Positions 11,610 through 26,066 of a stretch of DNA of 64,000 bases are shown one piece after another. The stretch's first letter is position 1. Each line of letters opens with the position of its first letter. This DNA is from Rhodothermales bacterium (GTDB lineage: Bacteria; Bacteroidota; Rhodothermia; Rhodothermales; JANQRZ01), in assembly GCA_028284265.1 (NCBI GenBank), contig JANQRZ010000011.1:1-64000 (forward strand), written 5' to 3'. A program made the translations under genes and the position numbers. The notes beneath the pieces are model-generated. The model saw nothing but the letters and a program-made list of their open reading frames with translations. It did not search any database and was not told the DNA's origin.

Positions 11610-13172
11610 GTGTCGAACGGTTCATCGCAGGTCGCCTCCGCTGATCGCGGTGCGTGGAAATCCAAGCTCGGGTTCATCCTCGCCGCCAGCGGGTCCGCCA
11701 TCGGGCTGGGCAACATCGTCTTCTTCGCCTCCAACGCCTACCAGTACGGCGGCGGCGCATTCTACCTGCCCTACTTCGTGGCGCTCTTCGTGATCGGGAT
11801 TCCGGTGATGATCATGGAGTTCTCGCTCGGGACAATGACCGGGCAGTCGTTTCCGATGGCGCTCAACCGGCTCGTCGGGAAGAAGGGCGAGGTGATGGGC
11901 TGGTTCACGATGGCGAGCGCGCTCTTCATCACGATGTACTACATCACCATCCTCGGCTGGGCGCTCTCGATGATGTTCGGCGCGATGGGCGGCCTGCTGA
12001 CCGACCCCGCGGTGGCCCCGTTCACCCCGTTTGAAACACCGAGCGGCGGACCGAGCGCGACGGCCTACTTCTTCGGCCTGATCGCCACATGGAAGCCCAT
12101 GCTGGCCGTCGTGACAATCTGGGTGCTGACGGTGCTCATCCTCTGGCGCGGCACGTCTACCATCGAGGCGGCGGTTCGGGTGTTTGTCCCGTTGATGTGG
12201 GTGTTCATGATCGTCCTCATTGTACGCGGCCTCACGCTTGACGGCGGGACCGACGGCGTGCTCTACCTCTTCACTCCCAACCTCGACGGCGTCAGCGATA
12301 TCAATGTATGGCAGGGCGCGTTCGCCCAGATGTTCTTCTCGCTCTCACTCGGCCTCGGGACAATGACGGCCTACGCGAGCTACCTTCCGAAAGACGCCGA
12401 CCAGATCAACAACTCGCTCCTCGTGAGCTTCCTCAACTGCGGGTTCGAGTACATCGCAGGCGTCGCCATCTTCGCGATGCTGTTCGTCTTCGCCCTCAAC
12501 CCGGCGGGGTCCACGCTCTCGCTCTCGTTCTTCGTCATCCCGCAGGGCATCGCCGCCTTCCCGGTCGGGGTGAAGCTCTTCGGGACGCTGTTCTTCTTCC
12601 TCGTCGTGATCGCGGGGTTGACGAGTGCGGTCTCACTCGTCGAAGGGTTCGCCGCTTCGATCATCGACAAGCTCCAAATCTCGCGCACCACGGCCCTCAC
12701 GATGGTCCTCGTGCCCGGCATCGTCGGCTCGCTCGCCTTCGCGCTGCCGCAGATTATCGACCCCGGCCTATCCGGCAACGGGACGCTTGGACTGACCCTG
12801 CTCGACATCCTCGACCACTGGGCGTTCCGCTACGCGCTGATCTTCTCGGGCTTCATGCAGTGCATCCTGATCGGCTGGGTGTTCGGCGCGGACCGGCTCC
12901 GGCAGGCCGCGAACAAGTATTCCAAGTTCCACCTCGGGCCATGGTTCAACTGGCTCATCAAGCTCGTCATCCCGATCATGCTCGGCTACGTCCTCGTCGG
13001 GACGCTGATTGAGGACCTGACGCAAGACGGCGGGCTGTACGGCTCGCTCTACGACCTGAACGCCTTCGAGTGGCTGCCGACGGTTATCCCGCTCGTGTGG
13101 TTCGTCGGCTCGATTGCCCTCGCTGTCTATCTCACCTTCGGTCGTCCCACCGAGCAAGCCCCCGTTGCCTGA
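11610..13172 (+). CDS. Sodium-dependent transporter, NSS/SNF family
   Basis: A 520-residue neurotransmitter:sodium symporter (LeuT fold) with about 12 membrane helices. The N terminus has the family signature WKSKLGFILAASGSAIGLGN, with helix 1 unwound around the sodium and substrate site. Further family hallmarks are FYLPYFVALFVIGIPVMIMEF and FFSLSLGLGTMTAYASYLPK (helix 6). Bacterial members import amino acids or related amines with Na+; the substrate cannot be read from sequence. The start is GTG 11610. The stop codon shares one base with the next ATG (TGATG at 13170-13174), so a small membrane-anchored protein is translationally coupled to it. Confidence 0.92.
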   Translation: MSNGSSQVASADRGAWKSKLGFILAASGSAIGLGNIVFFASNAYQYGGGAFYLPYFVALFVIGIPVMIMEFSLGTMTGQSFPMALNRLVGKKGEVMGWFTMASALFITMYYITILGWALSMMFGAMGGLLTDPAVAPFTPFETPSGGPSATAYFFGLIATWKPMLAVVTIWVLTVLILWRGTSTIEAAVRVFVPLMWVFMIVLIVRGLTLDGGTDGVLYLFTPNLDGVSDINVWQGAFAQMFFSLSLGLGTMTAYASYLPKDADQINNSLLVSFLNCGFEYIAGVAIFAMLFVFALNPAGSTLSLSFFVIPQGIAAFPVGVKLFGTLFFFLVVIAGLTSAVSLVEGFAASIIDKLQISRTTALTMVLVPGIVGSLAFALPQIIDPGLSGNGTLGLTLLDILDHWAFRYALIFSGFMQCILIGWVFGADRLRQAANKYSKFHLGPWFNWLIKLVIPIMLGYVLVGTLIEDLTQDGGLYGSLYDLNAFEWLPTVIPLVWFVGSIALAVYLTFGRPTEQAPVA

Positions 13173-13594
13173 TGCGTGCTCTCTTCTTCCTCGCGCTTCT
13201 TGTGCTTGCCGTCCCTGTGGCAGCGCAGCCGATCACCCTGACCCCGGAGATTCCGGTGGTCGGTCAGGAGATGACACTCCAATTCCAGGCTCCCGTCGAT
13301 ACGGTGTTCGTAACGTACCGCCCGAACAGTGCCGTCGCCCGGCGCGACACGATCCGCGTCGGCGAAGCCCAGTCGATGCGCTGGACGCCAAAGCGGGCAG
13401 GCGTGGTACGCATCGGCCTGCCAGACGGGACGACGCAGAACGTGTCGGTCCGCTTCACCGAGACACCCCTCGCCGGGGTCTTCGTGCTCCTCATTGCCGG
13501 GTTGATTCTGTTCGGCGGCGCGAGTTGGGCGATGATGAAGCTGTTCTCGGACGGCGCGACGACGTTCGACCCGGAAGACCTACCGGATACCTAG
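13172..13594 (+). CDS. Small exported membrane-anchored beta-domain protein
   Basis: A 140-residue protein with a signal peptide (MRALFFLALLVLAVPVAAQ), a beta-rich middle (about 20-100) resembling an Ig-like fold (EIPVVGQEMTLQFQAP, GVVRIGLPDG), a membrane helix at about 104-127 (GVFVLLIAGLILFGGASWAMM) and a short acidic tail. It is coupled to the NSS transporter by a one-base overlap and lies one base before the YfiM-like gene, so the three probably form one operon. It may be an accessory subunit of the transporter, but nothing in the sequence proves this. I do not recognise a named family. Confidence 0.7.
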   Translation: MRALFFLALLVLAVPVAAQPITLTPEIPVVGQEMTLQFQAPVDTVFVTYRPNSAVARRDTIRVGEAQSMRWTPKRAGVVRIGLPDGTTQNVSVRFTETPLAGVFVLLIAGLILFGGASWAMMKLFSDGATTFDPEDLPDT

Positions 13595-13595
13595 G

Positions 13596-14150
13596 ATGCG
13601 TCCAGGGTCGAGTGTCGGGGGTTTTGTGGTTCTCACGGTGCTGCTCGCCGGATCAGTAGCCGCGCAGGATGTCCCATCGCTGCGGATAGCGATGCTTTAC
13701 GGTACCGAGACTGGTGCGAGTTTGATCTCTGTCATTCCGAACGAACGTGAGGAATCTCCTATTTTGAGGTCTAGCTTGACCTTGGACAAGGAGATTTCTC
13801 CTCGCTGCGCTCGTCGAAATGACAGAACGTTGATAGGATTCAACCCCGCCCCCTCTCACCCTCTCACCCTCTCGGATACGACGCTCGTCGACCCTTGGTT
13901 CGGGCGCGACAAGGTGCTGCACGCAGCGGGCAGCTTTCTCTTGACGCTCAGCGCGCAGTACGTCCTCACGGCTAAGCTCAACACGGACGAGAATACGGCT
14001 ATCCCCATAGCCGCGGGCACCGCATTCTCCTTCGGCCTCGCCAAAGAAGTCGCCGACAGTCAGCGGCCCGTCCGCCCCCTCTTCAGCACCCGCGACCTCG
14101 TGGCTGATGCCGTTGGCGTAGCCCTCGCCGTGGGGTTGATTTTGTTGTGA
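13596..14150 (+). CDS. YfiM-like DUF2279 protein interrupted by translated repeats
   Basis: A 184-residue exported protein. Residues 1-23 are a signal peptide. Residues about 97-184 match the YfiM/DUF2279 pattern: DPWFGRDKVLHAAGSF, AFSFGLAKEVADSQ and STRDLVADAVGVALAVG, the same order of motifs as the small E. coli lipoprotein YfiM. Residues about 45-77 (from ISVIPNEREESP to RCARRNDR) are not protein-like; they translate a 97-base palindromic repeat. Residues 82-94 (NPAPSHPLTLSD) translate an octamer repeat. The frame remains open through both, so the gene may still be functional with a long insert between signal peptide and domain. There is no lipobox cysteine. Function of the family is unknown. 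Confidence 0.75.
   Translation: MRPGSSVGGFVVLTVLLAGSVAAQDVPSLRIAMLYGTETGASLISVIPNEREESPILRSSLTLDKEISPRCARRNDRTLIGFNPAPSHPLTLSDTTLVDPWFGRDKVLHAAGSFLLTLSAQYVLTAKLNTDENTAIPIAAGTAFSFGLAKEVADSQRPVRPLFSTRDLVADAVGVALAVGLILL
13729..13825. repeat. Palindromic repeat inside a coding sequence
   Basis: The ends are inverted copies, CTGTCATTCCGA and TCGAAATGACAG, and inner parts also pair (GAGGAATCTCC with GGAGATTTCTC). Length is 97 bases. It belongs to the same family as 16335-16424, 16774-16891 and 25945-26028, all of which are intergenic. Here it is read through in frame within the DUF2279 gene. Confidence 0.88.
13851..13874. repeat. Three-copy octamer repeat inside a coding sequence
   Basis: CCCTCTCA occurs twice, followed by CCCTCTCG, in the DUF2279 gene. 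On the opposite strand the unit is TGAGAGGG, close to the octamers found at 21185-21292 and 27553-27647. Confidence 0.8.
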
Positions 14151-14243
14151 GGTCCCCCCTGCCTCGTTCGTTGACACTCACTCGGCTGTCCCCCTTGAAG
14201 GGGGACAACGCGACGAGCAGCAGCGAAAAGTGTAGGGGGTCCC
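14151..14243. repeat. Intergenic palindrome upstream of purF
   Basis: The core GTCCCCCTTGAAGGGGGAC (14188-14206) is a perfect 9+1+9 palindrome. Outer CCCCCCT and AGGGGG segments can also pair. It starts at the DUF2279 stop codon and ends about 85 bases before purF, so it could stop transcription, although it has no T tract. Confidence 0.7.
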
Positions 14244-16315: not shown

Positions 16316-16334
16316 ACGCCAACCTACTCGGCTT

Positions 16335-16424
16335 GTCATCCCGAGCGCAGTCGAGGGATCTCTCTGGGCATTTACCGTTGTCCCACTAGAGATCTCTCCA
16401 CTCGCTCCGCTCGGTCGAGATGAC
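16335..16424. repeat. Palindromic repeat (GTCATCCCGAG type)
   Basis: Starts GTCATCCCGAGCGCAGTCGA and ends with CTCGGTCGAGATGAC as the inverted counterpart; the inner GAGGGATCTCT and AGAGATCTCTCC segments also pair. It lies between the hypothetical gene and infA and is a member of the same family as 13729, 16774 and 25945. Confidence 0.85.
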
Positions 16425-16540
16425 GGGACTCGGGCTTGGCAACAGAACCAGAGGTTCTCTGTTGAGAGGACCTTCAGCCTCACACCCGCGTAGGGTATAT
16501 TCTGTATCTGAGTCTCACCAACGCACCCCCTGCACACCCT

Positions 16541-16759: not shown

Positions 16760-16773
16760 GCTGTAGAAACGGC

Positions 16774-16891
16774 CTGTCATTGCGAGCGACCAAAGGGAGC
16801 GCGGCAACCCGAAGGCTCGGCGAAGCCAATCTCCCGATGACGACTCAACCGTCAGAAGATTGCTTCGTCGCTACGCTCCTCGCAATGACAG
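16774..16891. repeat. Palindromic repeat (GTCATTGCGAG type)
   Basis: Inverted ends CTGTCATTGCGAG and CTCGCAATGACAG enclose 118 bases, with inner AGCCAATCTCC and AGATTGCTTCG arms. It starts 14 bases after the infA stop and ends 18 bases before the end of the minus-strand acyl-CoA oxidase gene, between convergent genes. Confidence 0.88.
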
Positions 16892-16909
16892 CACAGGGGG
16901 TCCTTTGCC

Positions 16910-25934: not shown

Positions 25935-25944
25935 AGTCTGATTT

Positions 25945-26028
25945 GTCATTGCGAGCGGAGCGAAGCAATCTCCAAAGGAATGAGGCCACATCGGGAGATT
26001 GCCACGTCGCTTCGCTCCTCGCAATGAC
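25945..26028. repeat. Palindromic repeat (GTCATTGCGAG type)
   Basis: GTCATTGCGAGCGGAGCGAA at the left and TTCGCTCCTCGCAATGAC at the right are inverted copies, with inner GCAATCTCC and GGAGATTGC arms. Length 84 bases. It separates pgk from a short AT-richer orphan gene. Confidence 0.92.
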
Positions 26029-26066
26029 ATTGTTTCCATTTGACAATCGGCTATACCGGACGTTAG

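Follow-up and report, generated by a model that had tools for sequence, protein, structure and literature searches.

An in-frame REP-like palindrome in the linker of a YfiM-like gene of a Rhodothermales bacterium, and unrelated repeats in the same linker of three other genomes

The gene studied here (13596..14150, plus strand) lies in a stretch of 64,000 nucleotides, called the window below, from a Rhodothermales genome that is 97.9% complete (G000). It starts with ATG, comprises 184 codons and encodes a predicted exported, YfiM/DUF2279-like protein, with orthologues in 58 of the 114 genomes of the order. Gene order is conserved, with an NSS-type transporter on one side and purF on the other. 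A small membrane protein gene (13172-13594), kept in the congener G001 and in a further genome, G002, separates the sodium-dependent transporter from the YfiM-like gene; a longer ORF at 13070-13591 had no match in Pfam or NCBIfam. After the stop codon, a second palindromic stretch (CTGTCCCCCTTGAAGGGGGACA core, 14150-14240) is possibly a terminator-like repeat.

The protein is made of two conserved parts joined by a linker. Codons 1-44 (13596..13727, plus strand) encode a hydrophobic helix and a conserved SLRxAxLYG segment, which align in G001 and G002. From DPW onwards, 86 codons (13890..14147, plus strand; residues 99-184) form the conserved core, delimited by alignment, dN/dS and structural modelling, with three helices and residues H109, E151 and D167/D171. 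In the AlphaFold2 model of the 184-residue protein, a helix is found at residues 8-23, and residues 101-184 fold into three helices with a block-mean pLDDT of about 84-95. Residues 45-78 have no secondary structure and a pLDDT mostly below 50, a low value owed partly to the absence of aligned relatives covering this segment. Core dN/dS values were 0.049/0.696 against G001 and 0.055/0.820 against G002, about 0.07 in both cases, and the N-terminal part was relaxed (0.38/1.07 over 27 codons, about 0.36, against G001). With its core intact and under purifying selection, the protein seems to be functional.

Profile scores for the family assignment were weak, both lying below the curated cut-offs: Pfam DUF2279 reached 20.5 bits (E 7.8e-4; cut-off 28.6) and NCBIfam YfiM 28.3 (E 1.6e-6; cut-off 117). 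The assignment is nevertheless supported by conserved residues. H109, E151 and D167 are invariant across 16 aligned sequences, D171 being present in the window's protein, and the first three match the pattern given for the lipocone superfamily in PMC12419801, namely a His in H2, a Glu in H3 and an Asp in H4. The same source places YfiM-1 genes in the neighbourhood of an amidophosphoribosyltransferase gene, and purF is directly 3′ of the gene studied here. As the H1 helix of that paper is absent from the modelled core, the hydrophobic N-terminal helix may be H1 instead of, or besides, a signal peptide. Whichever it is, the insert described below sits in the linker ahead of the His-bearing helix, and its position between the N-terminal hydrophobic helix and the YfiM-like core is as the first-pass annotation had given it.

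That annotation, made by a model from the letters alone, had reported a 97-base palindrome read through in frame and adding about 33 residues. The palindrome is real, with slightly different limits. From TGTCAT to ATGACA, both included, it measures 95 nt (13730-13824), and with the paired TC/GA ends 99 nt (13728..13826, plus strand); BLAST, RNA folding and a covariance model support it. These 99 nt make up exactly 33 codons, residues 45 to 77, and the frame is open throughout, free of stops. Folded as RNA, the palindrome reached −49.9 kcal/mol (z −6.7), and none of 200 dinucleotide shuffles folded equally well. The hairpin is still strong in this copy, which is 85% identical to its nearest genomic relative. 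The insertion boundary is taken here as the repeat's own ends, since the linkers of relatives do not align and the exact empty site was seen in none of them.

The palindrome is one member of a dispersed family. A BLAST search of G000 with it gave 21 matches, namely itself and 19 other distinct places (two rows fall on one place). With a covariance model trained on 17 of the copies, at least 50 distinct places were found, the 17 training copies among them; the figure is a lower bound, as scoring covered 150 of 2896 first-look candidates. The 17 aligned copies, all of them inverted pairs, have the ends TGTCAT/ATGACA in common, together with an AATCTCC/GGAGATT stem further in, and three sub-types could be told apart by eye, the ATTYCGA, ATTGCGAG and ATCCCGAG forms. 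Over the order, 21 of 114 genomes had a match at E≤1e-5. Within the window, the covariance model placed three further copies on the plus strand, at 16332..16427, 16773..16892 (more divergent) and 25942..26031; all lie outside genes by our reading, in agreement with the intergenic location first ascribed to the family in the window. The flanks of the 50 copies were inspected by eye for extended conserved flanks and target duplications, and no shared boundary past TGTCAT/ATGACA was seen. A search of Rfam returned nothing relevant, with one chance match. No Y1 transposase (PF01797) was detected in G000 or in the draft genome G001; one weak match was found in G002, one weak in G023 and one strong in G030. 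The window's element has no obvious RAYT in its own genome.

Two observations on other G000 copies deserve mention. Small extra hairpins, such as GACACAGCGTGTC and GCCTGCGGCGAGGC, are present within one arm of L016 (C3:101182-101295), L018 (C8:52069-52188) and L159 (C3:15542-15652), which suggests nested insertions. At L019, L156, L153, L002 and L012, the element lies directly 5′ of the start of a lipoprotein or signal-peptide gene; this may reflect a leader or regulatory role, or be a coincidence.

Are other copies found inside genes? Among the 50 listed copies in G000, open frames and their translations were read, and only the copy in 13596-14150 was judged internal to a gene; the genome search thus gave no second coding insertion of the kind that the first-pass annotation had suggested looking for. 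In G000, 12 strand/locus cases in which a long frame runs through the element were examined in translation and rejected as coding insertions: in five of them (L019 rev, L156, L165 rev, L153 rev and L002 rev) a plausible start follows the element, accompanied in 4 of the 5 by a signal or lipoprotein sequence belonging to that start, and the remaining seven appear to be non-coding frames. These in-gene calls are readings, not proofs, as the codon score is a poor discriminator between frames at a length of 40 codons. No internal coding copy was found among 38 of the 39 listed G002 copies, 8 of the 10 G001 copies and the 32 G023 copies examined. In G002, the score favoured coding at L240 and L259, and both were discarded on the ground that Pfam puts real domains in another frame beside the element; L182 sits between two divergent gene starts. 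In the 50 copies, 107 of the 300 strand-frames are open and 22 of the 50 lengths are multiples of three, so that an element entering a tolerant linker at random would have a fair chance of leaving the frame intact.

We then compared the gene with its orthologues. Core matches were found in 58 genomes, and 56 of the 58 loci were read by eye, L102 and L103 being left out as they gave no alignment. A SLRxAxLYG-like motif recurs in many of the 56, and between this N-terminal motif and the DPW...DKxxH core the linker varies freely in length and sequence. When the covariance model was run over the 58 orthologous loci, the element was detected in this gene only at the window's own locus; one weak match (E 0.06) lay elsewhere in L057, not in the gene. 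The G001 core is 91% identical over 94 residues, yet its linker could not be aligned with the insert in the window. From these alignments, in which the orthologous linkers are devoid of the element, the palindrome is judged to be an insertion in the YfiM-like gene. Two other origins, an assembly artefact or ancestral protein sequence with a chance resemblance to the repeat, are hardly credible. A single isolate of the species has been seen, which leaves some room for an artefact, but the similarity to many dispersed copies is strong (107 bits, E 2.8e-24 for the best other copy in G000), no other orthologous locus has the element in this gene, and the gene order, with its transporter and purF, is conserved.

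A more serious objection concerns the start codon. If translation began after the palindrome, at the in-frame TTG of codon 79 (13830), the palindrome would be a hairpin in an untranslated leader, and the upstream frame would be open by chance. The upstream part has a low codon score (−0.27), five G000 loci have the element in frame just 5′ of a plausible true start, and PMC3733652 warns that many N-terminal REPs are in fact extragenic owing to wrong start calls. However, the N-terminal segment can be aligned with those of G001 and G002, and its hydrophobic helix and AxLYG motif recur across the order; a downstream start would lose an export signal kept by orthologues. Moreover, the repeats of G001, G002 and G030 presented below sit between the same two conserved parts. 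We consider such a downstream start very unlikely, and translation through the palindrome remains the preferred reading.

The linkers of three other genomes carry repeats of their own. The pattern CAGGGCGN6-14CGCCCCTACG occurs at 16 exact-pattern places in G001, two of them in the linker of the YfiM-like gene, at 11 places in G002, one of them in this linker, and at 2 places in G000, both outside the linker; the reversed pattern, used as a control, gave 0 in all three genomes. These GTAG-type copies of the linker (two in G001, one in G002) are stop-free, in frame and end in ..PLR. Over the 29 GTAG places, the three internal copies found are all in the YfiM-like gene; among the remaining flagged frames L182 and L193 were read, and in the others no more than one side scored clearly as coding. 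In G030, which belongs to another family, an unrelated hairpin repeat separates the signal peptide from the LYG motif. Searched against its own genome, this linker segment matched 9 other places at E≤0.1, including four at E≤1e-3, the best with 79% identity and E 1e-10. Four linkers of 56 should not be read as a rate, as G030 was chosen by eye and the own-genome searches took in four linkers, the other 52 having been compared with the collected loci. The number of independent insertion events is likewise uncertain, between two and four, for the GTAG repeats of G001 and G002 may descend from a single insertion in a common ancestor, with a later replacement in G000. With repeats present in the linker of four genomes, this position appears to take in such insertions repeatedly, and the recurrence at one site seems unusually clear.

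The linker of the window's gene also contains an octamer repeat (two CCCTCTCA units and CCCTCTC, 13851..13873, plus strand), rightly noticed in the first-pass annotation and counted there as a further addition. A pattern search found it at no other place in G000, and a related imperfect stretch is present at the same position of the G001 gene (SHPRTLTLSDTTL versus SHPLTLSDTTL). The array is a local tandem partly common to G001 and largely predating the G000/G001 split, not a second dispersed insertion. At L134 of G001, tandem GGTGAGAC octamers adjoin a GTAG-type hairpin, a combination echoed in the linker of the YfiM-like gene.

Could the insert have been recruited, the protein benefiting from its length, or from a stable mRNA hairpin ∼44 codons after the start, as a spacer or as a translational pause aiding export? 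The strength of the hairpin (z −6.7), despite 85% identity to the nearest relative, and the gain of repeats by the same linker in four genomes would fit. But repeat families, peptides and hairpin strengths all differ among the four: the z-score of the linker hairpin was −4.6 in the window, −2.8 in G001, −1.9 in G002 and +1.0 in G030. No insert peptide is conserved, and most of the 56 linkers have no such hairpin (mean z −0.4). Three linkers, those of L055, L054 and L087, had z below −2.8, and these are short. We regard recruitment as quite unlikely. A bolder proposal is that the linker is a true docking site, in which unrelated palindromes are preferentially inserted or selectively kept, the added length or mRNA hairpin after the export signal aiding targeting or domain spacing; this we hold to be unlikely as well.

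We favour, with a probability of about 0.85, a simpler reading, in which a dispersed REP-like palindrome entered in frame, neutrally or nearly so, a tolerant linker of an exported protein that receives such repeats recurrently. The element is presumably non-autonomous and would have entered the disordered linker of the YfiM-like protein probably after the split from the congener. It would be translated as about 33 added residues and retained because the linker tolerates extra sequence, the core staying under purifying selection. The linker would be a recurrently tolerated landing site, as suggested by the GTAG-type REPs of G001 and G002 and the other hairpin repeat of G030. Insertions that broke the frame, or that hit most other coding positions, presumably did not survive, selection keeping hits only where the added sequence is harmless.

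How does this compare with known systems? In PMC2229807 and PMC10969869, the Rickettsia palindromic elements (RPEs) are described as stem-loop repeats found between genes and in frame in genes, where they add tens of residues and the proteins stay functional; in-frame palindromes of Rickettsia also appear in PMC6649704. The analogy drawn at first with RPEs is apt, insofar as the window's element is also a stem-loop repeat of roughly 100 bp, found between genes and in frame in a gene. It does not extend to protein building on a genome-wide scale: one of these accounts finds RPEs in 19 reading frames, and the other has nearly half of the 44 RPE integrations in frame within genes, whereas here a gene contains 1 of the 50 listed copies. 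RPEs also measure 105-146 bp, against 99 bp for an element whose translation is predicted.

That the repeat represents a different family from RPEs, as first supposed, is doubtful. The CGTC-tagged REP superfamily, as described in PMC3733652, includes RPE-4, RPE-6 and dRS3. Like these repeats, the window's element has a tag of the TGTC type, opens its stem with A-T pairs, is built of inverted dimers, lacks a dedicated transposase and can lie inside a gene, and its half-element layout TGTC-ATTYC...GRAAT-CTCC, paired as inverted dimers, resembles that superfamily. Both ends of the window's element are TGTC, one of the tags listed there (CGTC, or TGTC/CCTC). The stem and loop depart from the definition, which is 8-9 bp with A-T at positions 1 and 2 and a loop of 4-5 nt: the left half has a 5-bp ATTCC/GGAAT stem with 12 nt between the strands, and the right half alone forms no comparable stem. 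The tail is CTCC, not an unpaired CCA-like one. Inverted-dimer pairing is found, the HH/TT orientation terms of that paper being impossible to match to the element. The GTAG-tagged class of the same source (GTAG tag, stem of 5-13 bp, loop of 2-20 nt, multicopy) describes the G001 and G002 inserts, not the window's repeat: in these inserts GTAG is directly followed by a GC-rich stem of 8-9 bp with a loop of 3-4 nt, and they are multicopy, mostly outside genes. RAYT genes, whose association with this class is a tendency, numbered 0 in the draft G001 and 1, weak, in G002.

PMC3733652 also reports GTAG and CGTC REPs in genes of several species, suggests a location in flexible linkers, and describes different REPs at about the same site in recB of two Xanthomonas species. 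The present case differs from the latter in that repeats of three unrelated families are involved, in four genomes belonging to two bacterial families, and in that the site is the linker of an exported protein. Among titles and abstract openings on DUF2279, YfiM, Rhodothermota palindromes and coding repeat insertions, no report of repeats in this gene was found. In-frame palindromes are an already known phenomenon; what the present case adds is the recurrence of repeats in one linker.

The gene offers an example, besides the well-known case of Rickettsia, of junk-like hairpin repeats turning into protein sequence. One linker with three repeat families, and their near-absence elsewhere in coding DNA, amounts to a natural experiment. 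The four genomes make it possible to ask whether repeats enter at random and survive in tolerant linkers, or whether certain linkers attract and use them.
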